From NCBI RefSeq assembly GCF_017876575.1, contig NZ_JAGIOE010000001.1, positions 4,568,443 through 4,632,442 on the forward strand: a stretch of 64,000 nucleotides of DNA, read 5' to 3'. Positions 7,001 to 45,754 of the stretch are shown in pieces. Position 1 is the first letter of the stretch. Every line of letters begins with the position of its first letter. Made by a program: the position numbers and the translations under genes. This DNA comes from Paeniglutamicibacter psychrophenolicus (GTDB taxonomy: Bacteria; Actinomycetota; Actinomycetes; Actinomycetales; Micrococcaceae). The notes under the pieces are model-generated. The model ran no database searches. It worked only from the letters and a program-made list of their open reading frames with translations, and had not been told where the DNA came from.

Positions 7001-7750
7001 ATGTCTTTCCAATCGCAGATTTATCGCTCACTGCCTGAGCTGGAGCGCTCCGACGCCATCGTCAACCGCATCTCCAAGGCGATAACGCTTGGCATGTTGC
7101 GCGTCGGAGAACGCCTACCCAACGAACTCGAGATGTCCGAGATGTTCGGGGTTGCCGTAGCCACCCTTCGAGACGCACTTGCCGTCTTGCGCGAGCACGG
7201 GATCGTGGAAACGAGACGTGGGCGCAATGGCGGAACATTCATCCTGAAACAACCGCAATTCCAGATGGAAGCCATGAGGGATTGGCTAATGTCCACCTCA
7301 ATTGCCGAGATCAGGGATCTGGGCGACGAGCAGTCAGCCATTGCCGCCGCGACCGTACGGTTGGCGTGCGACCGGGCCGAGCCTCACGAATTGGAGAGGC
7401 TGCAGGACATGGCTCGCGCCTTGGTGCTGGCAGACGATGCGCAGTCCAGGGCACGGGCCGACAGCCGCTTCCACATCGAACTGGCCGTGACAGCCCAATC
7501 GACCCGCTTGGCCAACGCAGAGATTCGCTTGCAGGCCGAAACGGTGGAGGTGTTGTGGTCGCCGCTGGCGGGCGACTTTGACGCCGAACGGGCCACCGCG
7601 GAACACCTTGCCTTGGTGCGCGCCATCGCAGACAACCGTAGCCAGCAAGGTCAGCAACTGGTGATTGAGCATATCCGGCGCAATACGCACCATCTCATCG
7701 ACACGAAGTTGGCACTGAGCTACTCGACCGATTCAAAGGAGACCGAATGA
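7001..7750 (+). CDS. GntR-family transcriptional regulator, FadR subfamily (FCD domain)
   Basis: A 249-residue regulator. The winged helix occupies about 16-82 (LPNELEMSEMFGVAVATLRDAL) with a basic wing (TRRGRNGGTF). The FCD effector domain follows, with the metal/effector set D154-x3-H158, H202 and H224. ATG 7001 was chosen because it directly precedes the domain; TTG 6995 is an alternative. It overlaps the Cache-domain gene by four bases and converges on the P450/glutamine-synthetase operon, making it the obvious candidate regulator of that operon. GntR-type PipR controls the mycobacterial pip P450 genes, which fits, but control here is inferred. Confidence 0.88.
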   Translation: MSFQSQIYRSLPELERSDAIVNRISKAITLGMLRVGERLPNELEMSEMFGVAVATLRDALAVLREHGIVETRRGRNGGTFILKQPQFQMEAMRDWLMSTSIAEIRDLGDEQSAIAAATVRLACDRAEPHELERLQDMARALVLADDAQSRARADSRFHIELAVTAQSTRLANAEIRLQAETVEVLWSPLAGDFDAERATAEHLALVRAIADNRSQQGQQLVIEHIRRNTHHLIDTKLALSYSTDSKETE

Positions 7751-8451
7751 GTCCCTCCCAACCGGCGGTTGTGGCCTTGGGGTCCATCGCGAAATGGTTC
7801 AATGACGCATCGGCGGACACCTACGCGTTGGCCTCCGCGGTCAGCGACCTGTTCACGCTCGGCCCGGCCCCCGGCGTACCCGTTGCAAAAAACGAGCTTG
7901 CCGGATTGAAGGTCCTGGCCTGTGCCTTCCTGAAGGATCACCCATTCGCGGTGGGGTCCGGGGCAACGTTCGCCTCGGCGGTTGTCAGTGAAGGCCAGGG
8001 CCTGCTCGAATGGTGGTCGCCGGGACCGCAGGGGGTCGAGAAGCTGCAGTTTGACCTCGACCCGGGCGGAGAACGGTTTTATGACTACGAACGGCTTCCC
8101 TTTTTCACCTCCGCCGAACGAACCGGCGAGGAGACCGTTTGGGGCCCGTATGTCGATTACTTGGGTTCGGACGAATACATCCTTACCCACGCCGCTCCGT
8201 TCTATATCCACGGAGAATTTGCGGGTGTGGCGGGCTATGACGTCACGGTGCGGGTGCTGGAGGATATCTTCCTGCCGATAATGCGTTCGATTCCCGGGGA
8301 CGCGGCGCTGCTGAATGCCAGTAACCGGGTCATCATCGGCAATTCTGGCGCTTACCTTGTCGGAGAGCGGATCAAGTCCGCTCCGGACGGAAGCGACATC
8401 GTTCCGATGGACGTCCCTCATCTGGGCTTCTCCATGCTGGTCCCGTCATAG
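7747..8451 (+). CDS. Stand-alone soluble Cache (PDC)-type sensor domain protein
   Basis: A 234-residue protein resembling a single Cache/PDC ligand-binding domain. The segment around 115-175 has the typical YDYERLPFF, TVWGPYVDYLG and GVAGYDVTV features (strand, WGPY, gAGvD). A second half-domain holds INSNRVIIGNSGAYLVG-like sequence. Cache domains normally lie outside the membrane in chemoreceptors or kinases. Here there is no signal peptide, membrane helix or output domain. It overlaps the GntR gene by four bases (ATGA), so the two are co-translated. It may act as a cytoplasmic ligand sensor for the regulator, which is inference. Confidence 0.68.
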   Translation: MSPSQPAVVALGSIAKWFNDASADTYALASAVSDLFTLGPAPGVPVAKNELAGLKVLACAFLKDHPFAVGSGATFASAVVSEGQGLLEWWSPGPQGVEKLQFDLDPGGERFYDYERLPFFTSAERTGEETVWGPYVDYLGSDEYILTHAAPFYIHGEFAGVAGYDVTVRVLEDIFLPIMRSIPGDAALLNASNRVIIGNSGAYLVGERIKSAPDGSDIVPMDVPHLGFSMLVPS

Positions 8452-8500: not shown

Positions 8501-9325
8501 TCAGGCCTGCCGGGCCAGCTGCCGGCGCCGAAGGACGGCTTGTTCCACGAGGGCACCGAAGATCGCCCGGCGGTCCGCGTCCGATCCGTCACGGTCTTCC
8601 GGATGCCATTGCACCGCCACTGCCCAGGAGTACCCCGGGTGTTCGGTGCCTTCAATGATCCCGTCATCGGCCACGGCGCTGACCACCAGGCCCGGAGCCA
8701 CTTGGTCCACCGCCTGGTGGTGTCCGGAACGAACGGTGACCCGTTCGCGTCCCAAGATGGACCTGATCTTGCTGCCCGCGGCCAGGGACACCGATTCGTT
8801 GAGGAACATCGGCTGCCCGGGCTGCCCCTGGTGCAGGGTCGAGGGCACGATGTCCGGCACCAGTGTTCCGCCGAGCGCAACATTGAATAGTTGGGATCCG
8901 CGGCAGATGGCAAGCAGCGGTTGGTCCTGCCCGAGGGTTCGATGGATCATGTCGATGCAGAACTCGTCGGCTCTGCGATCCACGCCGTAGGCCTTGGGGA
9001 TGGATCCCCGGAGCCCGTACAGTGATCCGTCGACGTCCCCGCCACCGAGGAATAAAACGGCATCGGCAGCCTCCGCAGCCATGGCGGACTGCGGGTTGGC
9101 CGCCGAGCTGTCGATCAAGACGGCCCGCGCACCGTTCTCGAAGAGTTGGTCGAAGGCACTGCGTGTGAAGTCACGCATGATCTCGTAGCTTTCTCCGCTC
9201 ATGCCGGGGAAGGTCAGCGAGACCACAACCGCCACCAATGGCGCATCGGGGGGAAGCAAATCAAAACCTTCCGGGATGATCTCTTCCATGCCCAGCATCA
9301 TGTCTCCGGGGGCCTCCGCGCTCAT
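8501..9325 (-). CDS. Class I glutamine amidotransferase-like gamma-glutamyl hydrolase (PuuD-like), copy 1
   Basis: A 274-residue peptidase C26/PuuD-type hydrolase. The nucleophile elbow LAICRGSQLFN holds the catalytic Cys, and AVQWHPED gives the His-x-Glu pair. PuuD frees GABA from gamma-glutamyl-GABA. The start overlaps the stop of the preceding PuuD-like gene by four bases. It is the last gene of an eight-gene operon containing a glutamine-synthetase-like ligase, so the natural reading is removal of the glutamyl group that the ligase adds. The exact amide is unknown. Confidence 0.85.
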   Translation of the reverse strand: MSAEAPGDMMLGMEEIIPEGFDLLPPDAPLVAVVVSLTFPGMSGESYEIMRDFTRSAFDQLFENGARAVLIDSSAANPQSAMAAEAADAVLFLGGGDVDGSLYGLRGSIPKAYGVDRRADEFCIDMIHRTLGQDQPLLAICRGSQLFNVALGGTLVPDIVPSTLHQGQPGQPMFLNESVSLAAGSKIRSILGRERVTVRSGHHQAVDQVAPGLVVSAVADDGIIEGTEHPGYSWAVAVQWHPEDRDGSDADRRAIFGALVEQAVLRRRQLARQA

Positions 9326-10092
9326 AGTTTAATTGCCTCCAATATGTTCGTTTGATCGGTTGCTGAGAAATCGCTCCGGCGGGTCCGGGATGTTTCGACC
9401 ACCCAAGTGAACAGCGCATGGTCGGTGGACGAGGAAGCGGCCAGATCCTCGGGGTGCCATTGGACGGCAAGCAGCGGGGCGCCCGGAACCTCCAGTCCCT
9501 CGATGACCCCGTCCGTGGCCGTGGCGGAAACCCTCAGCCCGTCGCCGACCCGGTCCACGGCCTGGTGATGGTACGAGGATGTCATCACGGCGGCAGTGCC
9601 CAACACCAATCCAAGGAGCGTCCCCGGATCGCAGGTCACCGGGTGTTCGGCGCCTCGGTGTTCGACCGTGCCGGGTTCCAGGTGCCCCACCAACGTTCCG
9701 CCATGAACCACGTTGAGCAGTTGCAAGCCCCGGCAAATCGCCAAGGTCGGGGTTCCCGTCTCCAGACAGGCCCGCAGGATCTCTGCCTCGAATTCGTCCT
9801 GCCCCTCGTAGTCGGCCGGCCAGTAATGTTCGTCGGGCTCGTTTCCGTAGCGGCGGGGGTCGATGTCGGCACCGCCGGGAATGACCACGCCGTCGAGCCG
9901 TGCAACCTGTTCGGCCGCTGATTCGCTGCTGCCAGGAAACAGGACCACGGGTTCCCCTCCGGCCCGGTCGATCGACCGCAGGACTTCCACCGCGACTGCG
10001 GTGCCGGCGAAGCGCATGCCCTGGACCTTGCCCGACCACATGCCCGGGACACCGATCAACGGGCGTCGGCCCGTCGTCGCACCGGCGCTCAT
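9322..10092 (-). CDS. Class I glutamine amidotransferase-like gamma-glutamyl hydrolase (PuuD-like), copy 2
   Basis: A 256-residue homologue of the following gene, with LAICRGLQLLN (catalytic Cys) and AVQWHPED (His, Glu). The N-terminal RPLIGVPG and the VIPGGADIDPRRYG segment are typical of the PuuD/gamma-Glu-GABA hydrolase family. ATG 10092 overlaps the stop of the binding-protein-like gene by four bases. The two adjacent copies differ through much of their length, so this looks like an old duplication with possible division of substrates rather than a recent repeat. Confidence 0.86.
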   Translation of the reverse strand: MSAGATTGRRPLIGVPGMWSGKVQGMRFAGTAVAVEVLRSIDRAGGEPVVLFPGSSESAAEQVARLDGVVIPGGADIDPRRYGNEPDEHYWPADYEGQDEFEAEILRACLETGTPTLAICRGLQLLNVVHGGTLVGHLEPGTVEHRGAEHPVTCDPGTLLGLVLGTAAVMTSSYHHQAVDRVGDGLRVSATATDGVIEGLEVPGAPLLAVQWHPEDLAASSSTDHALFTWVVETSRTRRSDFSATDQTNILEAIKL

Positions 10093-10811
10093 GCCGACCT
10101 GCCCGCGGTTGCCTTTACCCCGTGCTCCAGCGGGAAGACGAGCCCGGGCATCCAGGTGTCCCACACCTCGCGCAGGCTGCCGTCGGCGATCACCTCCGCG
10201 AGCGCGGCGTTGAATTCCTCGCGCAGCCCCGGGTTGCCCTTGGCGACCCCGATCCCCCACGGGTTGCGGGTGGCCACGGTGAAGGCAACATCGTAGCGCG
10301 GGTCATCGCCCAGAGGCACCAGCACCACATCGTCATCAACCATTGCGTCCACGCTCGAATCGGCGACCGCAGCCAGCATGTCTTCGTAGACGGTGTCACC
10401 GCTAAAGGGAACGATGACCGCTCCCTCGAAGGTCCGGGCCAGGGCCATGTTGGCGCTGCCGTCGATGGCGGCCACCCGGTAGCCGACCAGGTCGGCCGGG
10501 GTGCGGGCGGGATCGTCCTTGCGGACCAGGACCGTCTCGTCGAACACTGCATACGGGCGGGTGAAGTCCACCACGGCCTGGCGCTCGGGAATGATGCCCT
10601 GCCCGCACCACACCGCATCCACCCGGTGGTCTCGAACCGCGGGCAGCATCTCGTCCCATCCCATGACGACCCATTCGACCGTAAGGCCCATGCGTGAGGC
10701 CACCAGCTCCGCTGCGGCGGGTTCGTAGCCGGTGCGTTGGCCGTTGCCATCGATCAGCGAAAAGAGCGGGGGTGCGACAGCGTCGATGCAGGCCAGTTTC
10801 AGCGTTGTCAT
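10089..10811 (-). CDS. SBP_bac_3-type amino-acid-binding protein without signal peptide
   Basis: A 240-residue polar amino-acid binding fold (family 3 solute-binding): LACIDAVAPPLFSL at the N-terminus, GYEPAAAELVASRMGL, DAVWCGQGIIPERQ and DFTRPYAVFDETVLVRKDD. Members normally carry a lipoprotein or Sec signal. Here the mature fold begins at residue 3, so it should stay in the cytoplasm. No ABC permease or ATPase is next to it. Its ATG shares one base with the stop of the glutamine-synthetase gene (TAATG) and it overlaps the hydrolase gene by four bases. It may bind or channel an intermediate or act as a sensor; its role is unknown. Confidence 0.75.
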   Translation of the reverse strand: MTTLKLACIDAVAPPLFSLIDGNGQRTGYEPAAAELVASRMGLTVEWVVMGWDEMLPAVRDHRVDAVWCGQGIIPERQAVVDFTRPYAVFDETVLVRKDDPARTPADLVGYRVAAIDGSANMALARTFEGAVIVPFSGDTVYEDMLAAVADSSVDAMVDDDVVLVPLGDDPRYDVAFTVATRNPWGIGVAKGNPGLREEFNAALAEVIADGSLREVWDTWMPGLVFPLEHGVKATAGRSA

Positions 10812-12226
10812 TACGGCATCGTCTCCCAGTACATTTCACGGTCCCATTCGGTGATCGACCCGCAGTAGCGGGCCCATTCTTCTTCCTTGAGCTTGGTGTA
10901 GATGGATACCAGGTCTGCAGGAAGCTGCGAGGTCAGGTAGGTGTCCGAGACGAACGCCCCAACGGCGTCGCCGAGGGTCAGCGGAAGCTGCGCCCCGAGT
11001 GCGGGTGCGCTGTCACAAGCCTCGTCGGGGGCCCCCGGCTCGAGCTTGCGGTTGATCCCGTCTTCCATCGAGGCGATGAGCAGGGTGTGGGACAGGTAGG
11101 GGTTCACCGCGGCGTCCGGCACCCGGTACTCCATCCGGCCGTTGGCGGAGATGCGGATCAGGCAGCCACGCGAGTCAAGGCCCCAGTTGGCGGTGGAGGG
11201 AGCAAATTGCCCGGCGTCCCAGAACCGCTTGTAGGAGTTCACAGTGGAGGCCATCACGGCCATGGATCCCTGGGCGTGGGCCAGCATGCCGCCGATGGCG
11301 TGCCGGGCGGTTTCCGAGACATGCAGTTCCACGCGTCCGGCGTCTTCGATGACGTTGGTGTCCCCGTCCCAGAGGCTGAGGTTGTGGTGGCAGCCGTTGC
11401 CCATCTGGCCGTTGTAGGGCTTGGGCATGAACGAGGCGGTGACCCCGAATTCGCGGGCGACCTGCTTGCATATCTGCCGGTAGGTGACCAGTCGGTCGGC
11501 GGTGTTTTCCACGCGGTCGTACATCCAGTTCAGTTCGAGCTGGCCGTCGTCCTCGTAGTCGCCCTCGATCATGTCCAGGCCCATGGCCTTGGAATACGTG
11601 ACGAGCTTCTTGTAGATCGGGCGCATGCGCTCGAGATTTTCCACCTGGTAGGCGGGGCTGGAGCCGGGACGCTTGACGACTTCGAGACCGGGGCCTTCCC
11701 ACGTCATTTCGGGTTCGGTGCCCGAACGCACCTCAAACCCGGTTCGTTCCGTGAACGCGGCGTGGGTCCGTGCCAGCAACGAGCGCGTGTCGATGGCCAG
11801 CGGACGGCCACCAACCTCCGGCAGGTGCGGGGGCTCGTAGGCGGTGCAGAAGATCCGGGCCACCGAGGTGTCCCAAGGCAATACCACGAATGAATCCGGC
11901 TCCGGCAGTGCCCAGAACTCGCGGGCCTCGATGCCGCCGCCGATCAAGTTGCCGTGGCGGTCGTTCTGCAGGTCGGAGAGCGCCGTGCGGTGGAAGGCGA
12001 TGCCCTTTTCCAGGTTGCGGCGGAAGTGGTTGGCCGGAACCATCTTGGCCACAACGCGCGAGCCGATGGTGGGCAGGGCGTAGTAGATGTACTCGACCCC
12101 TGCGGCCTCGATCTTCGCTGCAAGGTCCTTGACGACCCGGGGCTCGAGGTTGCTGGCCTGGTGCCGGAAGAAGGCTTCACGGTCCATCATGGCGTCGGTT
12201 TCGGTGCGGATTGCTTGCAAGGTCAT
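10811..12226 (-). CDS. Divergent glutamine synthetase, probable gamma-glutamyl-amine ligase
   Basis: A 471-residue glutamine-synthetase-fold protein. The visible active-site blocks are GTEPEMTWEG, DDGQLELNW, a GNGCHHNLSLW variant of the NGSGMH block, STVNSYKRFW, and a late NWGLDSRGCLIRIS/MEYRVPDAAVNPY region matching the arginine and glutamate segment. The canonical NRSAAIR motif is altered, which suggests a substrate other than ammonia. PuuA/GlnA-like enzymes join glutamate to amines. ATG 12226 has AAGAG upstream. A glutamine-synthetase-like gene next to a P450/ferredoxin/reductase set is known from the mycobacterial morpholine (mor) locus, and the PuuD-like hydrolases downstream support a glutamylated intermediate. 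Confidence 0.82.
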   Translation of the reverse strand: MTLQAIRTETDAMMDREAFFRHQASNLEPRVVKDLAAKIEAAGVEYIYYALPTIGSRVVAKMVPANHFRRNLEKGIAFHRTALSDLQNDRHGNLIGGGIEAREFWALPEPDSFVVLPWDTSVARIFCTAYEPPHLPEVGGRPLAIDTRSLLARTHAAFTERTGFEVRSGTEPEMTWEGPGLEVVKRPGSSPAYQVENLERMRPIYKKLVTYSKAMGLDMIEGDYEDDGQLELNWMYDRVENTADRLVTYRQICKQVAREFGVTASFMPKPYNGQMGNGCHHNLSLWDGDTNVIEDAGRVELHVSETARHAIGGMLAHAQGSMAVMASTVNSYKRFWDAGQFAPSTANWGLDSRGCLIRISANGRMEYRVPDAAVNPYLSHTLLIASMEDGINRKLEPGAPDEACDSAPALGAQLPLTLGDAVGAFVSDTYLTSQLPADLVSIYTKLKEEEWARYCGSITEWDREMYWETMP

Positions 12227-12254
12227 GGAACTCAACTCTTTTCTGCTGGAAGTC

Positions 12255-13484
12255 TTAGATGGTGACAAGCGCGCCGGCGTCGAGCACCAGCTGGCGGTAA
12301 TGCAGATTCCTGGATGCCGGTAGGCCGGCATTGACGACGCCGATGAGTGTGTCTCCCCGGTAGTACCCCACTGCCACTCCGGCGTGGGGCCGGTCCGGGT
12401 CGCCCTCCAAAACCCGGGTTTCCTCGGCCAGGGCAGGGGAACCGACGCCGTTGATCCGGGTCCCGAAGATGTCGGTCCAGAACGACGGGAGCGGAGCGGG
12501 TGCCTCTGCTGGAGGCTGCCCTGAGAGCCCGGCGACAAGCGCCGGCGCCGCGATCTTGGCGGTGTCTGTGGGGGTCGCCCAGTGCTCCACCCGCCGGGCC
12601 GGAAGCCCGTTGCGGTCGTCCGGGTACCGTGCAATATCCCCGACGGCGACGACTCCAGGAATCGGTTGCCCAGCTATTCCCAGGACCCGTAAGTGGCTGT
12701 CGCATTCCACGCCGTCGACGAGGTCAAATCCGTTGCCCTGCAGCCATTCAACGTTGGCACGTGAACCGACGGCTTCGACGATGACGTCGACGTCGATCAC
12801 GCTGCCATCGGAAAGCTCCATGCCCGTGCAGGATTCGGTGCCCCGATAGGCGACTACGGACACCGCCTGCCGACAGTCCACGCCGCGTTGCGCGAGCATG
12901 TCCCTCACGCCGGAGGAGAGTGCATGGCCCAATGGGCGCTCCATGGGGCCCGTGCGCCCTTCCACCAGCGTCACCGCACACCCCAGTGATGCTGCGGTGG
13001 CAGCGCTTTCGCATCCGATGAACCCCGAACCGATGACGCCCACCCGGGTTCCCGGCCGGAGTGCTTCATGCAAGGCCAATGCATCGTCGATGCTGCGAAG
13101 CACGTGACGCCCTGCCCGCGGACCGGGCGCAGCGACCCGTGCGGGCCGCAGACCGGTGGCAACGACCAAGCCGTCGAAGTCGAGTTCCTCCCCGCTGTCC
13201 AAGGTGATGGTGCGTGCCGCCAAATTGGATGCAGTGATCCGGGTTCCCAACCGCCATTGGATTCCGGTGGCGCTGCGTCTGGGACGGAAGGCCAGTTTGG
13301 CCAGGGCTTCCTCCGGGGTCCCGGGGGCCGCCAAGACGTCTTTGGAGAGCGGCGGCCGGTTGTAGGGTGGGTGCTCTTCCTCGCCAATGACCAGGATCTC
13401 TCCTGTCCAGCCGGCGGCCCTCAGCTGTTCGGCTGCGCGCAGACCCCCGAGCGAGGCGCCGGCGACAATGATCCGCTGGACCAT
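12255..13484 (-). CDS. NAD(P)H:ferredoxin reductase, FAD-dependent (P450 redox partner)
   Basis: A 409-residue putidaredoxin/rhodocoxin-reductase-type flavoprotein. The N-terminal FAD fold is VAGASLGGLRAAEQL, followed by YNRPPLSK, a second dinucleotide fold (VIGSGFIGCESA), and VVAVGDIARYPD near the FAD contact. It passes electrons from NAD(P)H to the small ferredoxin encoded immediately upstream (two-base gap), which would reduce the P450. ATG 13484 was chosen over longer forms because the first beta strand of the FAD fold starts at residue 4. Confidence 0.9.
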   Translation of the reverse strand: MVQRIIVAGASLGGLRAAEQLRAAGWTGEILVIGEEEHPPYNRPPLSKDVLAAPGTPEEALAKLAFRPRRSATGIQWRLGTRITASNLAARTITLDSGEELDFDGLVVATGLRPARVAAPGPRAGRHVLRSIDDALALHEALRPGTRVGVIGSGFIGCESAATAASLGCAVTLVEGRTGPMERPLGHALSSGVRDMLAQRGVDCRQAVSVVAYRGTESCTGMELSDGSVIDVDVIVEAVGSRANVEWLQGNGFDLVDGVECDSHLRVLGIAGQPIPGVVAVGDIARYPDDRNGLPARRVEHWATPTDTAKIAAPALVAGLSGQPPAEAPAPLPSFWTDIFGTRINGVGSPALAEETRVLEGDPDRPHAGVAVGYYRGDTLIGVVNAGLPASRNLHYRQLVLDAGALVTI

Positions 13485-13486
13485 GG

Positions 13487-13678
13487 CTAGTCCTTCAGGA
13501 AGATGGCTTGGACCGGGCATACGTCGATGGCTTCTTCGACCTCGTCGAGCAGCGCATCGTCGAAGGACTCCTTGTATTCCAGGATCCCCTCGTCGTTCAT
13601 CGAAAAGACCTTGGGGGCCGCAATGGCGCATTGGCCATGGTTGTCGCAAAGCGTGCGGTCGACGGTGATCTGTGCCAT
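13487..13678 (-). CDS. [3Fe-4S] ferredoxin for the P450
   Basis: A 63-residue ferredoxin with only three cluster cysteines, C11, C17 and C54, in CDNHGQC and DVCPVQA. The position normally holding a fourth cysteine is His14 (CxxHxxC), diagnostic of [3Fe-4S] ferredoxins that serve actinobacterial P450s. It sits between the P450 and reductase genes, in the same order as morB/morC-type loci. The ATG at 13678 is the only start matching family length. Confidence 0.93.
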   Translation of the reverse strand: MAQITVDRTLCDNHGQCAIAAPKVFSMNDEGILEYKESFDDALLDEVEEAIDVCPVQAIFLKD

Positions 13679-13730
13679 GGAAGTACTCGTTTCTTTGGTG
13701 CTGGTGGTGATGTCAGGCGTTGGGCGGGGC

Positions 13731-14942
13731 TTAGCCTCGTTTGGTGAATCCAATTGGCAACCGGATAGGGCCGGTGTTGCCCGAGTCGGGCAGCCATTCG
13801 TCCCCGCCAGTCAGGCGTGGATTGCCAAGGCGGCTGGCCAGCAAAGGCAGGGCCTCGCTCATGTCCGCGCGGGCCACGAAGTGTCCCAGACAGTGGTGGA
13901 CTCCGCCACCGAACCCATAATGGGCCGGGTGCTCGCCCAGCAGGTCCAGTTCAGGGTTCGGGAACGCAAGCGGGTCGGTGCCGGAGGCCTGGGTGAACAG
14001 GTGCACCGTGGTGCCCGCTGCGATCTCGAGCCCCTGGTAGGTGAAGTCCTCCACGGCCTCGCGGGTCACCCAAGTGACGGTCGGGTTGGTGCGCATGACC
14101 TCTTCGACGGCCTTGGGCCCAAGCTCCGGCCGTTCGGCCAGCAGTTCCCATTGGTCCGGGTTGCGCATGAAGGACTGCATGGCTAGGCCCAGTTGGTTGC
14201 GGGTGGTGTCCATGCCTCCGAAGATCAGTAGCACTAGTGCGTTGCGGAGCTCTTCGTCGTTGAGCTTGTCGCCGTCCCGGCTTGCCAACACCAGTCTGGA
14301 GACGAAGTCCTCTCCCGGATTTGCTTGGCGGTCTTTGATGAGATCCTCCGCGTAGGCGTAGAGCTCGGCCACTGCCGCGTCGACCTTGTCCAGGTCCTGC
14401 TTGAAAGTGACGCCCAGGGCCAGCCCGATGGTGGAGGCCAACCGGGCGATCGTGGGCCATTCGCTCTCGTCGATGCCCAACAGGATGGTCAGCACGCGGG
14501 TGGCGTAGGGCTCGGCAAAGTCGCCGATGAATTCGCACTCACCCTTGTCGATGAAGTCATCGATCAGCTCGTTTGCCAGCGCCTGGAAACGCGGGACGAG
14601 GTCCTTGATGAGCCGGGGGGAGAATGCCGGGTTGAGCAGGCGCCGTATTCGGTGGTGGTCTTCGCCCTCCAATACAAGCAGGTTCTTGGTCCACCACTCG
14701 AAGAACAACCCGCCGTGTATACCGTTGTGTGCCGGCCACTTGGCACTGCCCTGGATGAGCTTGGGGCTCTTGAGCAGTTTGCTGACTTCTTCATAGCGCA
14801 GCACGGCGATGCCATAGTTGGTTCTTGCGTACCAGCTGGCTCCTCGGGCGTTGCGTAGTTCCTCCGATTGCATGGCGAAGCTCGGATCGGAAATGTCTAG
14901 GTAGGGTACGGCAAGCTGGTTCGGGACGATTTCGACACTCAT
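13731..14942 (-). CDS. Cytochrome P450 (candidate secondary-amine hydroxylase, CYP151-like context)
   Basis: A 403-residue soluble bacterial P450. The heme loop FGGGVHHCLG puts the thiolate at Cys351. The I-helix is GGMDTT at 242-247 (oxygen activation), the K-helix ExxR is E281-VMR, and EDHHRIRR lies in the C-helix. It is followed by its own ferredoxin, reductase and a glutamine-synthetase homologue. That order is known from the CYP151 (mor/pip) systems that open morpholine, piperidine and pyrrolidine by alpha-hydroxylation. Membership of CYP151 is inferred from context, not from alignment. Confidence 0.92.
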   Translation of the reverse strand: MSVEIVPNQLAVPYLDISDPSFAMQSEELRNARGASWYARTNYGIAVLRYEEVSKLLKSPKLIQGSAKWPAHNGIHGGLFFEWWTKNLLVLEGEDHHRIRRLLNPAFSPRLIKDLVPRFQALANELIDDFIDKGECEFIGDFAEPYATRVLTILLGIDESEWPTIARLASTIGLALGVTFKQDLDKVDAAVAELYAYAEDLIKDRQANPGEDFVSRLVLASRDGDKLNDEELRNALVLLIFGGMDTTRNQLGLAMQSFMRNPDQWELLAERPELGPKAVEEVMRTNPTVTWVTREAVEDFTYQGLEIAAGTTVHLFTQASGTDPLAFPNPELDLLGEHPAHYGFGGGVHHCLGHFVARADMSEALPLLASRLGNPRLTGGDEWLPDSGNTGPIRLPIGFTKRG

Positions 14943-15016
14943 GGTGCGATCCTCTCGTTTTGTGTTGGTGGCCTTGACGGACTGATCCGGTTGACCGTTT
15001 CAGTTGATGCGAAGTT

Positions 15017-16534
15017 CTAGTTGCCGGCGGTGGCTCGCTGCTGCTTGATGGCGTCTGCGGCCGGGGCATCGCCCTTGAGATGTGGCTTGCGAAGGACCAG
15101 ATACACGAGGCCGATTCCCAGCACGAAGATCGAGGAAATCAAGACGATGTAATTGGCGAACCATCCAGCTTCCGGTGTGCGCGGCCAAGCCATGTTGATC
15201 ATGCCCAGCACGCCCCAGAGCATGGCCATCACGGTCACGGGCATGCCCCAGCGTCCGAGCTGGTACTTGCCGGCCGGCTTCCAGCCCTTGAGCCGGGCAC
15301 GCAGGGATGCCAGTACGACCATTTGGAAGCCCAGATACATGCCCATGGCGGCGAAGGAGATGATGGCGACCAGTGCGTCTTCGGAGATCTTGGAACCGAT
15401 CACCACCAGCGCGGGAAATATGCCAGCGATCAGCAATGCGTACGGCGGTACGTGGCGGTTCTCGCTGAACCGTGCGAGCAGGCCGCTGAACGGTAGAATA
15501 CCGTCGCGCGCCATTGAGTAGGTCAGGCGGCTTGCGGCGGCCTGCAGGCTCAAGACGCAGGAGACGAAGGAAATCAGAACGACTCCGAGGACGACCTTGT
15601 ATCCGACCGGGCCGAAGGCAGCCATCAGTACGCCAACGAGTGGATCGGAGTCGGCACCCGAAATCACGGCGCCGAAATCGGGGACGGCGAGGATCAGGGA
15701 GAGACAGACGAACATTGCTGCGGCTCCCCCTATGTAGATGGTCATGCGCATGGCCTTGGGGATGGTGCGGCCGGGATTCGGGACTTCCTCGGCGACGTCG
15801 CCGCATGCTTCGAATCCGTAGTACTGGAAGATCCCGATGAGTCCGGCCGCGGCGAATGCCACGAAGTAGTCGGATCCTTCACCAGCGCCGAAGGAGTCAA
15901 AGAGCACTGATAGGTCGTGGTTGCGGTGACCGATGATCAGCCAGAGGCCTACAACGATGGCACCGCCGAGTTCCGCGATCAGGCCGAGCATTGCGACCTT
16001 GTTCAGCACTCCGGTGCCAAGAAGGTTCAGGCACGTCGCCAGGGCGATGATGACAAGCGCTGCCAGAATTGTTGCGTTGACGCTGCTTTCCAGACCGAGG
16101 AATGCTGCGAGGTACGGGCCAGCTCCGTAGGCCACGGAGGCGATGGTGGTCAGTAGCGCGGCGAGGTAAACCCAACCATTCATCCAGCCCCATTTGCGGC
16201 CCCACAGCCGTCTCGACCATGGGTAGACGCCGCCGGCCACCGGATAGTTCGACACCACTTCACCAAAGACCATGGCGACGAAGAGCTGTCCTGCGCCAAC
16301 AATGACCAAGGACCAGATCATCGGCGGTCCGGCGGTGCCCAAAGCAATTGCGAATAGGGAATAGATCCCTACGACGGGCGACAGATAGGTGAATCCCAAG
16401 GAGACGTTTCCCCAGAACGTCATTTCACGTTTGAACTGGGTTTCATACTTGTAGCCGAGCGACGCCAAATGCGCCGCATCTTCGTCAAGATCGTGGGGCT
16501 TGGCCTCGGGTGCTTCACGTGACTCTATGGACAC
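15017..16534 (-). CDS. APC-superfamily amino acid/amine permease (505 aa)
   Basis: A 12-helix APC transporter of the amino acid/choline/GABA type. The N-terminal region reads YKYETQFKREMTFWGN, followed by FTYLSPVVGIYSLF and the GEVVSNYPVAGGVYPWSR segment typical of the family. GTG 16534 was chosen because AAGGAG lies five bases upstream; an ATG 48 bases further out lacks such a site. It is the first gene of the eight-gene operon, separated from the P450 by 74 bases, and probably imports the amine the operon degrades. Confidence 0.88.
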   Translation of the reverse strand: MSIESREAPEAKPHDLDEDAAHLASLGYKYETQFKREMTFWGNVSLGFTYLSPVVGIYSLFAIALGTAGPPMIWSLVIVGAGQLFVAMVFGEVVSNYPVAGGVYPWSRRLWGRKWGWMNGWVYLAALLTTIASVAYGAGPYLAAFLGLESSVNATILAALVIIALATCLNLLGTGVLNKVAMLGLIAELGGAIVVGLWLIIGHRNHDLSVLFDSFGAGEGSDYFVAFAAAGLIGIFQYYGFEACGDVAEEVPNPGRTIPKAMRMTIYIGGAAAMFVCLSLILAVPDFGAVISGADSDPLVGVLMAAFGPVGYKVVLGVVLISFVSCVLSLQAAASRLTYSMARDGILPFSGLLARFSENRHVPPYALLIAGIFPALVVIGSKISEDALVAIISFAAMGMYLGFQMVVLASLRARLKGWKPAGKYQLGRWGMPVTVMAMLWGVLGMINMAWPRTPEAGWFANYIVLISSIFVLGIGLVYLVLRKPHLKGDAPAADAIKQQRATAGN

Positions 16535-17009
16535 GACGACTCCTTGTTGGATTGCGGTGAGGGATCGAGAGATCAGAGCCACAGGACCTCGTGATGCTCG
16601 TCACGTGCGCTCTGAAAAAACTGTAACAGTGAATGATTTAGAAGACAAGGGTTTGCGAATATGCTTCTTCAGAGGCTGGCCTCGAGCAGGATTCCCACGG
16701 AACCGCATGGCTTTCCGCCGGTTATTTAGCTAAATGCCAACCATTCGTCGCCAATTCCCCGTCACGTCGCCCACGGGACTCGCTGCACGCGCGCGAGGCC
16801 GCGCCACATTACATTGAATTGCAAATGTTATCTGTGGCACTAAACGCGCCACCGAAGACAAAGACGTTCTCACGGCATGGACGGCATTTCCTTGCGGGAT
16901 CCGGCCAAGCGCGGGCTTCCCGGAGCGCCTTCCGCTACAAGACAAGAAACCCGTGGCGCAGTCCAAGGGACTGCGCCACGGGCATGACTTGCATACGGAA
17001 CCAAGTTTG
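16535..17009. other. 475-base intergenic region: promoter of the amine operon plus a terminator
   Basis: This holds the start region of the minus-strand amine operon and, at its right end, the terminator of the cation exporter gene. A small palindrome ACTGT-A-ACAGT lies at 16620-16630, about 85 bases upstream of the permease start, and is a weak operator candidate. The stretch is AT-richer than its surroundings (16610-16670). No convincing gene was seen. Confidence 0.5.
16950..16982 (-). terminator. Strong 15-bp hairpin terminator after the CDF exporter
   Basis: Arms 16950-16964 and 16968-16982 pair perfectly around a 3-base loop. On the minus strand the hairpin is followed by a T-rich run (GTTTCTTGTCTTG). 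It begins 27 bases past the exporter's stop, a textbook intrinsic terminator. Confidence 0.9.
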
Positions 17010-21773: not shown

Positions 21774-21837
21774 CGTTTCTCCCGCAATATCAAGGTCTAG
21801 TTTTAACGTACTATCATCAAGCCAATTTCCTCTGCGG

Positions 21838-40561: not shown

Positions 40562-41440
40562 CTACTTGTAGTCGTAGAACCCGGCCCCCGACTTGCGGCC
40601 CAGCTTGCCCTCGGCGACCAGCGCGGCCACACGCTCGTTGGGGGCGTCCTCGGCGGCACCGGTCTCGGCGTACGTGGCCTGGGCGATGAAGTCGATGACA
40701 TCCAGGCCGACCATGTCCATGAGCGCGAACGGGCCCATCGGGTGGCCCAGCGCGGTGCGCGCGGTGGTGTCGATGTCCTGAACGCTGGCGATGCCCGAGT
40801 CGGCCAGGAACAACGCCTCGCGCTGGATCGCGCCCATCAGCCGGTTGGCGATGAACCCGGGGATCTCCCGGTTGATCAGCACCGGTTCCTTGCCCAGCCG
40901 GCGGGCCAGCTCCATGGTGGTGTCCACCGTCGCGTCGCTGGTGGTTTCGTGGCGCACGACCTCGACGCACTTCATGACCAATGCGGGGTTGAAGAAGTGC
41001 ATGTTGCACACCTGCCCGGGGCGCCCGGTGGCTTCGGCGACCTTGGAGGATCCCAGCGTGGAGGAGTTCGTGGCCAGAATGGCATGGGCCGGGGCCAGTA
41101 CGCCGAGCTTCTCGAAGATCTGCGTCTTGATGTCCAGCCGCTCGGTGGCTGCCTCGATCACGAAGTCGGCGTTGGAGGCGGCGGAGTCCAGGTCGGTGCT
41201 GTAGGCCAGCGCATCAAGTGCCGCCGTTGCGGCGTCCTGCCCCAGCTTCCCCTTGGCCACCCGGGAGGCGGCCCAGGTTTCCAGTTCGGTGCGTGCCGCG
41301 GCGAGGCCTTCCTCGGAAATGTCCTGGATGGTGGTGGAATACCCGGCCAGGGCTGCGGTCATGGCGATCTGGCGTCCCATGGTTCCCGCGCCGATGACCA
41401 GGATGGTGGAAATGTTCTCGATGCCGGTTGCTGTGCTCAT
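40562..41440 (-). CDS. 3-hydroxyacyl-CoA dehydrogenase (3-hydroxybutyryl-CoA dehydrogenase type)
   Basis: A 292-residue NAD(P)-dependent dehydrogenase of the PaaH/Hbd type. The dinucleotide fold is ILVIGAGTMGRQIAMTAALAG, the catalytic region ATNSSTLGSSKVAEATGRPGQVCNMHFFNPA includes the His, and the C-terminal helical domain has GFIANRLMGAIQREAL. ATG 41440 has GGAG six bases upstream. It follows the aldehyde dehydrogenase gene by 138 bases in the gabT-gcdH-ALDH set. Oxidation of 3-hydroxybutyryl-CoA to acetoacetyl-CoA fits the step after crotonyl-CoA hydration. Confidence 0.88.
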   Translation of the reverse strand: MSTATGIENISTILVIGAGTMGRQIAMTAALAGYSTTIQDISEEGLAAARTELETWAASRVAKGKLGQDAATAALDALAYSTDLDSAASNADFVIEAATERLDIKTQIFEKLGVLAPAHAILATNSSTLGSSKVAEATGRPGQVCNMHFFNPALVMKCVEVVRHETTSDATVDTTMELARRLGKEPVLINREIPGFIANRLMGAIQREALFLADSGIASVQDIDTTARTALGHPMGPFALMDMVGLDVIDFIAQATYAETGAAEDAPNERVAALVAEGKLGRKSGAGFYDYK

Positions 41441-41578
41441 TGTTGGCTCCATACATTCGTAAGGTGTTCGCTGGCTCACGTTGGCGGCCATGCCCGATGC
41501 TTATCCTAGACACGGCGCGAGGCGCCCGCCGCATCCGGACATGCCGGATGACGGAGGACGCCCCGATTCGACGTGCGG

Positions 41579-43042
41579 CTAAGCCCCGCGCAGGTACACG
41601 GTGGTGGTGTGCGTGAAGAACTCCTTCGCCGCCCCGCCCTGTTCCTTCGGACCGTAGCCGGATTTCTTGGCCCCGCCGAACGGGACGTGCGGATCGGCGC
41701 CGGCCGATTCGGAGTTCACGTGCAAGATGCCCACGTCGATCGATTCCATGGCATCCAGCGCCTTGGTCAAATCCTGGGTGAACACCGCGCAGCTCAGGCC
41801 GTACTCCGAGTCGTTGGCCAGCGCGAAGGCCTCGGCGGTGCTGGCCGCGCGGCACACGGAGATGACCGGACCGAAGAACTCGTCCCGCCAGGAAACGTTT
41901 GCCTCACCGGCCGGGATTTCCAGCACCGTGGGAGCCACGAAGGCCTCGCCGAGCCCCGAAACGTCGCCGGCGAAACGCACCGTGGCCCCCTGGGCTATCG
42001 AGGCTTCGATGCCCGCACGGATCTGTGCGGCGGCCGCGGCCGAAACCACCGGGCCCATGTGGACGGCCGGGTCGGTGGGGTCCCCCACCTTCCATTCATC
42101 CAGGCGCTCGGTGAGCCGGGCGAGGAATGCCTCGGCAATGCCGTCCTGGAGCACCAGGCGCGAGGTGGCCGTGCACTTCTGCCCGGTGGAACGGAAGGCG
42201 CCAAAGAGCACTTGCTCGGTGGCAAGTTCCAGGTCCGCGTCGTCGAGCACCACCGAGGCGTTCTTTCCGCCCATTTCCGCCTGGATCGGCACCCCGGCAC
42301 CGGCAGCGGCGGCGGCGAGCTGGCGTCCCACCCCGGTGGACCCGGTGAAGGTCAGCCCGTCCAGCTCCGGGTGGTTCACGATTGCATCCCCGAGCGAGCC
42401 CGAACCGATCACCAGGTTCAGCACGCCGGCCGGCAGGCCGGCCCCGACCAGCGCCTGGGCCAGGCGCAGCGCCAGCAGCGGAACGCTGGATGCCGGCTTC
42501 CACACCACGGTGTTGCCGAAGACCAGCGCCGGGGCGATCTTCCACGCCGGGATGGCAATGGGGAAGTTGAACGGGGTGATCACCGCGACGACACCCAGCG
42601 GCTTGCGGGTGACCAGGATCTGCTCGCCGCGGCGCGGGGAGGAGAAGACCTCCCCGGCCAGGCGGTCGGATTCCGCGGAGTAGTAGGTGAAGATCTGCGC
42701 GGCACGCAGCACCTCGCCGCGGCCCTCGGTGAAGGTCTTGCCTTCTTCCCGGGCCAGTTCGGTGCCCCAGGCATCGGCGTTTGCGGTGATGATGGCCGCG
42801 GCGCGGGAGAGGTATCCCCCGCGTTCGGCCATGGGCGTTGCGGCCCAGCCGGCCGCGGCCTGGCGGGCCGCAGCCATGGCGGAGTGAACGTCGGCCTCGG
42901 TGGCGGTGCCGCCGGCGGCCAGCAACTGGTTCGGGTTGGTCGGCGAGCTGGATTCCAGCTCGCGCCCGGTGCCTTCGACCCATTGGCCGTCGATCAGCAG
43001 GCGCAGCGGAACAACATCGGTCTGCGTAATGGTTTCAGTCAT
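41579..43042 (-). CDS. NAD(P)-dependent aldehyde dehydrogenase (candidate semialdehyde dehydrogenase)
   Basis: A 487-residue ALDH. The coenzyme region is TPFNFPIAIPAWKIAPALVFGN, the general-base Glu lies in QAEMGGKNASVVL, and the nucleophilic Cys in STGQKCTATSRLV. The C-terminal FGGAKKSGYGPKEQGG is as in semialdehyde dehydrogenases. The GQKCTATSR block resembles alpha-ketoglutarate-semialdehyde and related enzymes more than GabD. It starts 31 bases after gcdH in the same operon as gabT, so succinate or glutarate semialdehyde is the likely substrate; which one is not decided by sequence. Confidence 0.87.
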   Translation of the reverse strand: MTETITQTDVVPLRLLIDGQWVEGTGRELESSSPTNPNQLLAAGGTATEADVHSAMAAARQAAAGWAATPMAERGGYLSRAAAIITANADAWGTELAREEGKTFTEGRGEVLRAAQIFTYYSAESDRLAGEVFSSPRRGEQILVTRKPLGVVAVITPFNFPIAIPAWKIAPALVFGNTVVWKPASSVPLLALRLAQALVGAGLPAGVLNLVIGSGSLGDAIVNHPELDGLTFTGSTGVGRQLAAAAAGAGVPIQAEMGGKNASVVLDDADLELATEQVLFGAFRSTGQKCTATSRLVLQDGIAEAFLARLTERLDEWKVGDPTDPAVHMGPVVSAAAAAQIRAGIEASIAQGATVRFAGDVSGLGEAFVAPTVLEIPAGEANVSWRDEFFGPVISVCRAASTAEAFALANDSEYGLSCAVFTQDLTKALDAMESIDVGILHVNSESAGADPHVPFGGAKKSGYGPKEQGGAAKEFFTHTTTVYLRGA

Positions 43043-43073
43043 GTTTCCCTCGGGATAATCGTGCGGGGACTTC

Positions 43074-44261
43074 TTAGCGGAAGGCCGGGACGCCGGTGAG
43101 CTTGTTGCCCAGGATCAGCGTGTGGACCTCGTCGGTGCCCTCGTAGGTGCGCACCGATTCCAGGTTGTTGGCGTGGCGCAGCGGCGAGTAGTCAAGGGTG
43201 ATGCCGTTGCCGCCCAGGATGGTGCGGGCCTCGCGGGTGATCTTGATGGCCTCACGGCAGTTGTTCAGCTTGCCCACGGAGATCTGGTGCAGGTCAAGGG
43301 TGCCGGCGTCCTTCATGCGTCCGATGTGCAGGGCCAGCAGGTAGCCCTTGTTGATTTCCAGGGCCATGTCCACGAGCTTGAGCTGGGTCATTTGGTAGCC
43401 GGCCAGCGGCTTGTCGAATTGCAGGCGTGTCTTGGAGTAGGCCAGCGCGTCCTCGAAGGCGTCGCGGGCCGCGCCCATGGCGCCCCAGATGATGCCGTAG
43501 CGGGCCTCGTTCAGGCAGGAGAACGGGCCTTTGAGCCCGACGACGTTCGGCAGGACCGCGGTGGCCGGCAGGCGCACGTCGGTCAGTTCGATCTCGCACT
43601 GGATGGAGGCACGCATCGAGAGCTTGGGCTCGATCGGGGTGGCCTTGAAGCCGGCCGTTTCGGTGGGGACCACGAAGCCGCGGATGCCCGTCTCGGTCTG
43701 CGCCCAGATGACGGCGACCTGGGCCACGTTGGCCAGGCCGATCCAGCGCTTGGTGCCGTTGATGACCCAGTCATCGCCGTCGCGGCGGGCGAAGGTCTTC
43801 ATGGCGGAGGGGTCCGAGCCGGCGGTCGGTTCGGTCAGCCCGAAGCAGCCGATGGCCTCGCCCTTGGCCATCTTCGGCAGCCACTCGTTCTTCTGTTCCT
43901 CGGAGCCGTGCTTGTGGATCGCGCTCATGGCGAGGGAACCCTGCACCGAGACGAAGGTGCGCAGCCCGGAGTCCCCGGCTTCCAGCTCACTGCCGGCGAG
44001 GCCGTACTCGACGGCGGTGGCCCCGGCGCAGCCATAGCCTTTCAGATGCATGCCCAGCAGGCCGAGCCTGCCCATTTCCGGGACGATTTCCAGGGGGAAG
44101 ACCGCGTCGGCGTACCAAGAGGCGATGTTGGGCTTGATGGCTTCTTGGACGAAGGTGCGCACCTTGGCGCGCAGCGCCAGTTCCTCGGCGGAAAGCAGCG
44201 CATCGAAGTTGATCAGGTCGGCCGGGTCCAGTTGATGGGTTTCGTGGGTGGTGATGGTCAT
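43074..44261 (-). CDS. gcdH: Glutaryl-CoA dehydrogenase
   Basis: A 395-residue acyl-CoA dehydrogenase that oxidises and decarboxylates glutaryl-CoA to crotonyl-CoA. Family-specific blocks are YGCAGATAVEYGLAG, DSGLRTFVSVQGSLAM with the Arg that binds the glutaryl carboxylate, and GCFGLTEPTAGSDPSAM. YEGTDEVHTLILG carries the catalytic Glu (YEGTHDIHALILG in human GCDH). ATG 44261 has AAGGAG upstream. The gene lies 49 bases after gabT and 31 before the aldehyde dehydrogenase gene, which ties the set to glutarate/5-aminovalerate rather than only to GABA. Confidence 0.93.
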   Translation of the reverse strand: MTITTHETHQLDPADLINFDALLSAEELALRAKVRTFVQEAIKPNIASWYADAVFPLEIVPEMGRLGLLGMHLKGYGCAGATAVEYGLAGSELEAGDSGLRTFVSVQGSLAMSAIHKHGSEEQKNEWLPKMAKGEAIGCFGLTEPTAGSDPSAMKTFARRDGDDWVINGTKRWIGLANVAQVAVIWAQTETGIRGFVVPTETAGFKATPIEPKLSMRASIQCEIELTDVRLPATAVLPNVVGLKGPFSCLNEARYGIIWGAMGAARDAFEDALAYSKTRLQFDKPLAGYQMTQLKLVDMALEINKGYLLALHIGRMKDAGTLDLHQISVGKLNNCREAIKITREARTILGGNGITLDYSPLRHANNLESVRTYEGTDEVHTLILGNKLTGVPAFR

Positions 44262-44310
44262 GGTGTGCTCCTTGGAAAAAGTGGGTGGGGAAGCCCGGGT
44301 GCCGGGCGGG

Positions 44311-45672
44311 CTACTTGGCGGCGTCGGCGATGGCCTGGGCAAGGACGATCAGGCCGTCGCGCAGCAGCTCCTCGCCGATGACCAGCGGGGGCAGCAGGCG
44401 CACGACGTTGCCGTGGGTGCCGCAGGTCAGGGTCAGCACGCCGGCCGCGTGGCAGGCCGCGGAGATTTCCTTGGCCAAATCCGCGCGCGGTGCCAGGGTC
44501 CCGGCATCGGCGAGTTCGATGGCGAGCATGGCGCCGCGGCCGCGGATCTCGGCAACCACGTTGGTCGAGGTGAGCAGCGGCTCGAGGATTTCGCGGGCGA
44601 CTTCCTCGATGCGCTTCGCGTTTTGCATCAGCGTCCCGTCCTCGAACTGCTCGAAGACGGCCAGTGCGGCCTCGCAGGCCAGCGGGTTGCCGGCGTAGGT
44701 GCCGCCCAGCCCGCCGGCGTGTGGCGCGTTCATCAGCTCTGCGCGTCCGGTGACCGCGGAGAGCGGGACGCCGTTGGCCAGTGCCTTGGCGGTGAGGATC
44801 AGGTCCCCGGCGACGCCCTCGTGCTCGGAAGCGAAGAGGGTTCCGGTGCGGCCCATGCCGGCTTGGATCTCGTCGATGACCAGCACGATGCCGTACTTGT
44901 CGGCGAGTTTGCGCAGGCCGGGGATGAAGCCGGCGGCCGGGACGATGAAGCCGCCCTCGCCCTGGATCGGCTCGATGACCATGGCGGCGAACGTGTCCGC
45001 GCCGTGCTCCAGGATGGTGGCTTCGACCGATTCCAGCGCGGCCTCGGCTCCGGCGGCCAGGCCCTGCGCGGGACGCAGCGGGTTTGCGGAGGCCGCGCGG
45101 ATGATCTCTGCCGGCAGCGGACCGAAGTTCAGTTTGTACGGGTTGACCTTGGCGGTCATGGCCATGGTGAGCAGCGAGCGGCCGTGGTAGGCCTCGTCGA
45201 AGACCAGGACGTTGGCCCGGCCGGTGGCGGCGCGGGCGATCTTGATGGCGTTTTCCACTGCCTCGGCGCCGGTGGAAAACAGGCCGGTTCGCTTCTCGAA
45301 GTCGCCCGGGGTGTTCTCGTTGAGCCATTTGCAGACCTGGGTGAAGGATTCGTATTCGGTGACCATGAAGCAGGTGTGGGTGAAGGCCTCGAGCTGCGCG
45401 GCGACGCGCTGCGCCACGCGCTTGTTGCTGGCGCCCAGCGATGTCACCGCGATGCCGGAGGCGAAGTCGATGAGCCGGTTGCCGTCGACGTCCTCGATGA
45501 TGCCGCCGTCCGCGCGGGTCACGAAGACCGGCAGGGCGATCCCGAAGCCGTTGGTGACCTGGGCCGTGCGTTCAGCGTGCAAAGCGGCCGAACGCGGGCC
45601 GGGGATGGCGGTGGCGAGGTGGCGGGACTGGGCAATGGTGGCGGCATCGACGGCCGGGAGCGTTTCGGTCAT
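44311..45672 (-). CDS. gabT: 4-aminobutyrate/5-aminovalerate aminotransferase
   Basis: A 453-residue class III, PLP-dependent omega-aminotransferase. Blocks: FSTGAEAVENAIKIARAATGR, VFDEAYHGRSLLTMAMT, VIDEIQAGMGRTG (PLP-binding Asp and Gln) and LTAKALANGVPLSAVTG with the Schiff-base Lys. GabT enzymes also accept 5-aminovalerate. ATG 45672 was chosen (GGAG four bases upstream) over ATG 45708. It is the first gene of the operon with gcdH and lies divergent from a PucR regulator, a layout known for GABA genes in corynebacteria. Confidence 0.92.
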   Translation of the reverse strand: MTETLPAVDAATIAQSRHLATAIPGPRSAALHAERTAQVTNGFGIALPVFVTRADGGIIEDVDGNRLIDFASGIAVTSLGASNKRVAQRVAAQLEAFTHTCFMVTEYESFTQVCKWLNENTPGDFEKRTGLFSTGAEAVENAIKIARAATGRANVLVFDEAYHGRSLLTMAMTAKVNPYKLNFGPLPAEIIRAASANPLRPAQGLAAGAEAALESVEATILEHGADTFAAMVIEPIQGEGGFIVPAAGFIPGLRKLADKYGIVLVIDEIQAGMGRTGTLFASEHEGVAGDLILTAKALANGVPLSAVTGRAELMNAPHAGGLGGTYAGNPLACEAALAVFEQFEDGTLMQNAKRIEEVAREILEPLLTSTNVVAEIRGRGAMLAIELADAGTLAPRADLAKEISAACHAAGVLTLTCGTHGNVVRLLPPLVIGEELLRDGLIVLAQAIADAAK

Positions 45673-45754
45673 GCGCTCCACGTTATGCCAGGGCGTGACA
45701 CGCGTCATTAGATGATTTGCCCAAGGAGCCCGTCCGTGTTGGATAATTCAACCC

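Follow-up and report, generated by a model that had tools for sequence, protein, structure and literature searches.

Cyclic amines occur widely as pollutants and as fragments of drugs. The mor/pip clusters of mycobacteria carry genes in the order P450-ferredoxin-(reductase)-glutamine synthetase (GS) homologue, with a P450 of the CYP151 family, a ferredoxin of the 3Fe-4S type and the GntR regulator PipR. According to the accessible text of PMC9477822, PipA is cited for piperidine and MorA for morpholine, and the molinate and azepane degrader Gulosibacter molinativorax has two P450s, BioI and PipA (about 53% and about 52% identical to mycobacterial PipA and MorA), which are adjoined by reductase, electron-transfer and GS genes and of which BioI, and not PipA, was raised in molinate medium compared to LB. 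Here, we describe a related operon of eight genes, all on the minus strand, at positions 8501-16534 of a 64,000-nucleotide stretch (the window) of the 4.9-Mb genome of Paeniglutamicibacter psychrophenolicus. Based on gene content, conserved residues, co-occurrence and linkage, we propose that the operon encodes the upper part of the degradation of a cyclic secondary amine, piperidine being the likeliest candidate, with glutamyl tagging of the opened ring and a glutarate route below it. We hold this explanation as a whole to be somewhat probable; among its parts, catabolism of a cyclic amine is very probable, gamma-glutamylation is only slightly less so, and a C5 ring is favored with moderate confidence. 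If correct, the proposal would offer a testable role for the GS homologue beside the mor/pip P450s, place an orphan amine sensor that acts inside the cell in the context of a metabolic operon, name the likely ring size and supply a possible parent for the RDX plasmid cluster of Gordonia sp. KTR9.

Operon layout and resemblance to mor/pip clusters

The genes run from permease through P450, ferredoxin, reductase, ligase and binding protein to two hydrolases, and they are joined by gaps of 74, 52, 2 and 28 bases followed by overlaps of 1, 4 and 4 bases. Open frames and Pfam matches for all eight (AA_permease_2, p450, Fer4_15, Pyr_redox_2, Gln-synt_C, SBP_bac_3 and Peptidase_C26 twice) bear out the order and the joints of at most 74 bases given in an initial annotation of this DNA. 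A residue check likewise upholds its heme Cys351 and its three-cysteine ferredoxin: the P450 has only C136 and C351 and the ferredoxin only C11, C17 and C54, which are present in 64 of 64 aligned ferredoxins, with H14 in 63 of them. A convergent pair of regulator genes overlapping by four bases (7001-8451) and linked lower-pathway genes (40562-51677) lie beyond the region which that annotation covered. The operon and its regulators are as follows.

15017..16534, minus strand: amine or amino acid permease of the APC type, GTG start (Pfam AA_permease_2, 162.8 bits)
13731..14942, minus strand: cytochrome P450, heme Cys351 in FGGGVHHCLG (Pfam p450 and sequence)
13487..13678, minus strand: ferredoxin, 3Fe-4S type as judged from cysteines C11/C17/C54, His14 replacing the second Cys (Fer4_15)
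12255..13484, minus strand: flavin adenine dinucleotide-type ferredoxin reductase (Pyr_redox_2, 179 bits; top NCBIfam model HcaD, under its cut-off)
10811..12226, minus strand: predicted GS-like amine ligase, ammonium-site residues lost (Gln-synt_C; PDB matches 7cql and 9qur)
10089..10811, minus strand: amino-acid-binding fold (solute-binding protein family 3) without a signal-like N-terminus, R77 and D161 kept (SBP_bac_3)
9322..10092, minus strand: C26 (PuuD-like) hydrolase a, C120/H213/E215 (Peptidase_C26, 174 bits)
8501..9325, minus strand: C26 (PuuD-like) hydrolase b, C141/H241/E243 (Peptidase_C26, 146 bits)
7001..7750, plus strand: GntR regulator with FCD domain (Pfam)
7747..8451, plus strand: stand-alone cytoplasmic protein of the dCache type, most amine-motif residues present (profile matches to chemoreceptor sensor domains, motif columns)

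The mor/pip-like layout proposed in the initial annotation is recovered here, with the P450, the adjoining ferredoxin and reductase, the GS homologue and a GntR gene all in place. On the other hand, the regulator pair of the window is convergent at the far end of the operon and a permease heads it, which the mor/pip clusters do not share. Mycolicibacterium loci, which we call mor/pip-type from genus and layout and not from a named sequence, hold the same GntR, cache, binding-protein and C26 genes. We regard the operon as a mor/pip-type cluster with a fuller set of genes.

The window P450 is 97% identical to that of Paeniglutamicibacter gangotriensis, 69% to that of a Gulosibacter metagenome-assembled genome (L116) and 65% and 64% to those of Mycolicibacterium loci L075 and L110. 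The Gulosibacter locus holds a permease end, P450, ferredoxin, ligase, binding protein, C26b, cache and GntR, with no match to the reductase or C26a. Across all pairs of 98 cluster-type P450s identity is at least 40.9%, and in a quick tree of 102 rows these 98 form one clade (Shimodaira-Hasegawa-like approximate likelihood ratio support of 99) against an outgroup with long branches, which consisted of the second P450 of Gordonia sp. KTR9, two other P450s of the host genome and one Pseudonocardia P450; named PipA and MorA sequences were not among the rows.

Relatives were collected by scanning named genomes with a profile built from seven related P450s. The best 80 of 415 relatives were kept, and ten window proteins were compared with the open frames of 86 loci, comprising those 80 and six plasmid loci. 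The score cut-offs behind all counts of gene presence (family genomes, loci, glutarate genes) were our own choice: 50 loci with a ligase above 400 bits are termed single-ligase loci, and the other gene kinds were counted above 35 bits. Since flank lengths differ between loci, absences within them are weak. All ten gene kinds (the eight and both regulators) occur, as presence within the locus and not as strict contiguity, in 24 of the 50 single-ligase loci from many actinobacterial genera, which argues that the grouping is not due to chance. Counted singly in these 50 loci, the binding protein was found in 47, GntR in 46, cache in 45, ferredoxin in 44, permease in 40, C26a in 38, reductase in 37 and C26b in 33.

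A survey of 295 genomes of the window's family (cut-offs of 1e-60 for the P450, 1e-40 for the binding protein and 1e-90 for the ligase) found the P450 in 27 and the ligase and binding protein in an identical set of 26, every one of which has the P450. In the single P450-only genome (G275), the P450 sits in an ectoine-like cluster. Clusters of this type contain a cluster-type P450 with ferredoxin and reductase on a Streptomyces plasmid (L035:5824-15092) and in a genome of the window's family (L195:6798-14936); both have ectA and ectB, the Streptomyces plasmid alone has ectC, and adenylation and decarboxylase genes are present too. In such clusters, the P450 could possibly oxidize an ectoine-like ring.

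Beyond the single-ligase loci, 24 loci with a more distant ligase are alphaproteobacterial where named, and most hold a second, shorter GS gene; no match to the binding protein or cache was found in them. In several P450 loci (L033, L046, L062, L101 and others), a long GS gene is accompanied by a short, divergent one, which suggests a paired ligase. Plasmid p2 of Paracoccus sp. TOH carries a P450 57% identical to that of the window, two GS genes, a gene of the gamma-glutamyl-gamma-aminobutyrate (GABA) hydrolase family, a type 1 glutamine amidotransferase gene and a dehydrogenase with PuuC as its top model. Halomonadaceae loci have the P450, ligase and binding protein and showed no match to the window's two C26 proteins. 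That these loci are free of C26 proteins holds only in part: the second Paracoccus TOH amidotransferase has a weak relative there (53-61 bits).

On plasmid pGKT2 of Gordonia sp. KTR9, GntR, cache, P450 (61% identical) and a GS domain (52% identical) stand in the same order as in the window, whereas the KTR9 cluster (L031:11977-17469) looks like the module with a shortened GS domain that is joined to a ferredoxin-reductase-type domain, a second P450 coming after it. We take the fused gene and the second P450 to be XplB and XplA of the RDX cluster. The 25-kb stretch of pGKT2 gave no match to the binding protein or the C26 proteins.

The putative gamma-glutamyl branch

The closest PDB structures to the ligase are type III GS 7cql, presumably GmaS, and glutamate-methylamine ligase 9qur. 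We aligned the window ligase with those of the 50 single-ligase loci (51 rows) and, more widely, with 24 more distant ligases added (75 rows), using residue numbers that we take to be those of Salmonella GS. The ammonium-site residues are replaced in 51 of 51 rows, D50 by H, E327 by F and S53 by A or V (H, A and F at D50, S53 and E327 in the window), while E129, E212, E220, H269, R321, R344 and E357 are kept in 75 of 75 rows, as is the GxEPE motif in a motif search. Because the catalytic residues are kept and the ammonium-site residues replaced, catalysis with glutamate and ATP looks intact and the ammonia pocket does not, so the protein seems to be an amine ligase; a role as an ammonia ligase was rejected on the loss of these residues. 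The altered GS of the initial annotation is thus substantiated. No report tying gamma-glutamylation to CYP151-type P450s was found in the open-access literature searched.

A comparable set of enzymes is the Puu putrescine pathway (PuuA, PuuB, PuuC, PuuD and PuuP), which likewise combines an amine ligase, an APC permease and Cys-His-Glu hydrolases of the PuuD type. Both window hydrolases, described as PuuD-like in the initial annotation, prove to be so by their Peptidase_C26 matches and intact triads: the C26a triad is kept in 42 of 42 rows, and C141, H241 and E243 of C26b in 37, 36 and 36 of 37. The window differs from the Puu pathway in having a P450 system instead of a flavin oxidase (no gamma-glutamylputrescine oxidase PuuB was found among the eight operon genes by Pfam), in lacking a PuuC-like gene and in its extra binding-protein and cache genes.

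In 19 of the 50 single-ligase loci, a PuuC-like aldehyde dehydrogenase that resembles the Paracoccus TOH one (more than 430 bits) is encoded at a distance of 1.8-3.7 kb from the ligase. It shares the ligase strand in 15 of those 19 and falls between C26a and C26b in several (L048, L052 and L099, for example); for the L048 protein, the top NCBIfam model is PuuC, at 605 bits against a cut-off of 850. This gene fits our model since a Puu-like branch following ring opening predicts it. The initial annotation had joined such a branch to the P450, and this claim stands in part: the altered ligase, the intact triads and the dehydrogenase of the 19 relatives speak for it, while the window operon is without the dehydrogenase.

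The start codon of the binding-protein gene overlaps the ligase stop by one base in the window. By eye, the protein has no signal-like N-terminus, and in relatives the upstream frame reads as an out-of-frame ligase end. Since this signal is missing and Pfam found no ATP-binding cassette transporter genes among the operon genes, a role as a transport receptor was rejected. R77 is present in 51 of 51 rows and D161 in 49 of 51; in relatives of this fold, the equivalent Arg/Asp pair grips an alpha-amino acid. Because this pair is kept and gamma-glutamyl compounds expose an alpha-amino acid end, the protein probably binds a gamma-glutamyl intermediate through that free end. In a sample of 396 genomes from the phylum, the binding protein occurs in the window genome and three others, with the ligase beside it in two of the three. 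That it is exclusive to the module was not upheld, since one copy (in L199) stands apart.

Candidate amine sensor and upstream region

In PctD, the dCache_1AM amine motif comprises W155, F188, Y189, M215, S217 and D235, with R103 and D133, and single mismatches can abolish binding (PMC10104139, accessible text). According to the same text, Actinobacteria, Arthrobacter and Mycobacterium among them, have an intracellular dCache_1AM protein that forms a pair with a transcription factor, and a figure legend names GntR. The window pair, likened to it by description only, is also a two-gene unit of a stand-alone cytoplasmic dCache protein and a regulator, but the published pair is not tied to a catabolic operon in the accessible text of PMC10104139.

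In profile searches, the window dCache protein matched chemoreceptor sensor domains, including PctA and McpU. Motif columns were matched by eye in 44 rows, with PctD R103 and D133 left out: W89, aromatic residues at 119 and 120, and D165 are present in 44 of 44, and position 145 is mostly hydrophobic. The protein is probably an amine sensor. Exclusivity of the cache protein to the module was not upheld, for it occurs in all 26 cluster genomes of the family and also in 64 of the 269 others.

Two elements lie upstream of the permease gene.

16620..16648, minus strand: promoter-like element TTGTCT-N17-TACAGT (aligned upstream regions)
16590..16605, no strand assigned: palindrome CGTGA-N6-TCACG, candidate operator or CRP-like site (exact-match scan of the window)

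The CTTG and TA..GTTTTT parts of the promoter-like element are kept in 10 of 10 aligned upstream regions. The palindrome, just downstream of it, is the sole exact match in the 64-kb window and is largely kept upstream of relatives. Among 43 loci scanned for exact GTGA-N6-TCAC, matches stand at the permease in seven Micrococcaceae loci, not including L053, L055 and L067, and two further loci have matches far from the listed genes. The palindrome resembles CRP-type sites and is a possible GntR operator or CRP-like site.

Glutarate-type genes and competing explanations

A second group of genes in the window bears on the size of the ring.

50154..51677, minus strand: second APC-like permease (frame read; relative beside the operon in L047)
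48958..50358, minus strand: coenzyme A (CoA)-transferase III (top NCBIfam model succinate-glutarate CoA-transferase, 343 bits, cut-off 750)
45755..47308, plus strand: PucR-type regulator (family scan)
44311..45708, minus strand: omega-amino acid aminotransferase (GABA aminotransferase model TIGR00700, 487.9 bits, cut-off 506.65)
43074..44261, minus strand: glutaryl-CoA dehydrogenase (PDB 3swo, 532.9 bits, and 3sf6, 530.4 bits, both so named)
41579..43042, minus strand: aldehyde dehydrogenase, putatively for the glutarate semialdehyde step (top NCBIfam model alpha-ketoglutaric semialdehyde dehydrogenase, under its cut-off)
40562..41491, minus strand: 3-hydroxyacyl-CoA dehydrogenase (family scans)

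By family resemblance, the aminotransferase, aldehyde dehydrogenase, CoA-transferase and glutaryl-CoA dehydrogenase make up a 5-aminovalerate/glutarate set within 41579-50358. Orthologues of most of these genes lie no more than about 4 kb from the operon in five of six Arthrobacter loci compared (L042, L047, L050, L053 and L067, not L055), and in Mycolicibacterium loci L075, L082, L088, L098 and L113 the CoA-transferase, aldehyde dehydrogenase and glutaryl-CoA dehydrogenase start about 1.5 kb past the last hydrolase. The CoA-transferase was counted in 15 and the glutaryl-CoA dehydrogenase in 12 of the 50 single-ligase loci; neither was found above the same cut-offs in the remaining 36 loci, and an annotated CoA-transferase and acyl-CoA dehydrogenases near the P450 of R. 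opacus 1CP (L034) scored under them. No glutarate genes were found in the flanks of the four Paeniglutamicibacter loci (L051, L058, L059 and L066). Of the 26 family genomes bearing the module, 19 have a glutaryl-CoA dehydrogenase on the contig that holds the P450, at most 32 kb away from it. Since glutarate-type genes are linked to the operon in this way, we favor a C5 ring, most likely that of piperidine. A two-gene unit inside the glutarate set (47635-48863), with a RES domain in its second member, is a possible toxin-antitoxin pair.

In the pathway that we propose, the permease would import the amine, and reductase, ferredoxin and P450 would hydroxylate the carbon next to the nitrogen; the resulting hemiaminal would open to an amino-aldehyde, which is in equilibrium with a cyclic imine. 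The GS-like ligase would then add a gamma-glutamyl group to the freed amine, preventing re-closure. An aldehyde dehydrogenase, encoded within the cluster in some relatives and elsewhere in the host genome here, would yield gamma-glutamyl-5-aminovalerate, from which a C26 hydrolase would free glutamate and 5-aminovalerate. The genes at 40.6-51.7 kb could carry the latter via glutarate and glutaryl-CoA to crotonyl-CoA, and the GntR-dCache pair would sense the amine inside the cell. A broader version is more doubtful and offered tentatively: that gamma-glutamyl serves as a protecting group after P450 ring opening, with the binding protein, having lost its export signal, turned into a cytosolic carrier or enzyme for gamma-glutamyl intermediates under dCache-GntR control, and that this is a general actinobacterial piperidine-type route and the base from which the KTR9 cluster arose.

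Several observations weigh against the proposal. Pfam shows no PuuC-like gene among the operon genes of the window, and the closest such match in the host genome is only 44% identical. The window ligase has R at GS positions R339 and R359, where 39 of 51 rows have K, the dCache protein has Thr in place of PctD Ser217 in 44 of 44, and around the separate binding-protein relative (L199:9187-9864) about 9 kb of sequence to each side contains neither ligase nor P450. Several enzyme names, in the lower pathway and for the L048 PuuC-like protein, rest on top models under curated cut-offs, and the NCBIfam glutaryl-CoA dehydrogenase model ranks third, under its cut-off, for 43074..44261. The distance between operon and glutarate genes in the window's genus is 13-32 kb, and 7 of the 26 family genomes showed no linkage, with no dehydrogenase passing the cut-off in two of those seven. 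A close aminotransferase (at least 89% identity) is found in 14 of 15 genomes of the genus, including seven without the P450. On this count, the lower pathway looks to be core in the genus and would also serve other sources of 5-aminovalerate, with the operon as an accessory settled nearby.

The alternative that survives best, although we think it rather improbable, keeps the chemistry and changes the ring to pyrrolidine (leading to GABA), morpholine, piperazine or azepane, with the glutarate genes as mere neighbors for lysine or cadaverine breakdown. The presence of the aminotransferase in genus members without the P450 is in keeping with it, as is the GABA-transaminase model, which passes its cut-off in four of six neighboring aminotransferases examined (L040, L052, L072 and L077), with L042 falling under it and L075 cut by the locus end; we count this result in favor of our main proposal as well. 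Related P450s also meet several rings: PipA is cited for piperidine and MorA for morpholine, Gulosibacter BioI is up in molinate medium relative to LB (PMC9477822, accessible text), and Paracoccus sp. TOH is a piperazine degrader, going by the title of Cai et al. 2013, a reference in PMC3873909. A C5 substrate is nevertheless preferred here, as two C5-type genes, those for glutaryl-CoA dehydrogenase and CoA-transferase, are repeatedly found next to the operon, and this in several genera.

The order of steps could also be reversed, with the ligase acting first on the intact amine and the P450 then hydroxylating the gamma-glutamyl conjugate. The Puu, Ipu and aniline routes do tag with gamma-glutamyl before oxidation, and the binding-protein fold could hold such a conjugate, but ring secondary amines are poor ligase substrates. 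Given also that the mycobacterial MorA system oxidizes free morpholine (PMC9477822, accessible text), we consider this order quite unlikely and retain ring opening before tagging. Least likely of all is an open-chain secondary or tertiary amine, N-dealkylated by the P450 to a primary amine that the ligase glutamylates and a hydrolase later frees, like methylamine via gamma-glutamylmethylamide; this would suit the type III GS and glutamate-methylamine ligase structures closest to the ligase, but Pfam found no N-methylglutamate genes among the operon genes, and the operon is linked to a C5-type omega-amino acid route.

Elsewhere in the window, a region of low G+C content (about 52-55%) at 19934-23238 encodes one protein scoring barely above the threshold of the T7SS_signal model and three without a Pfam match, and is perhaps an inserted secretion-type island.

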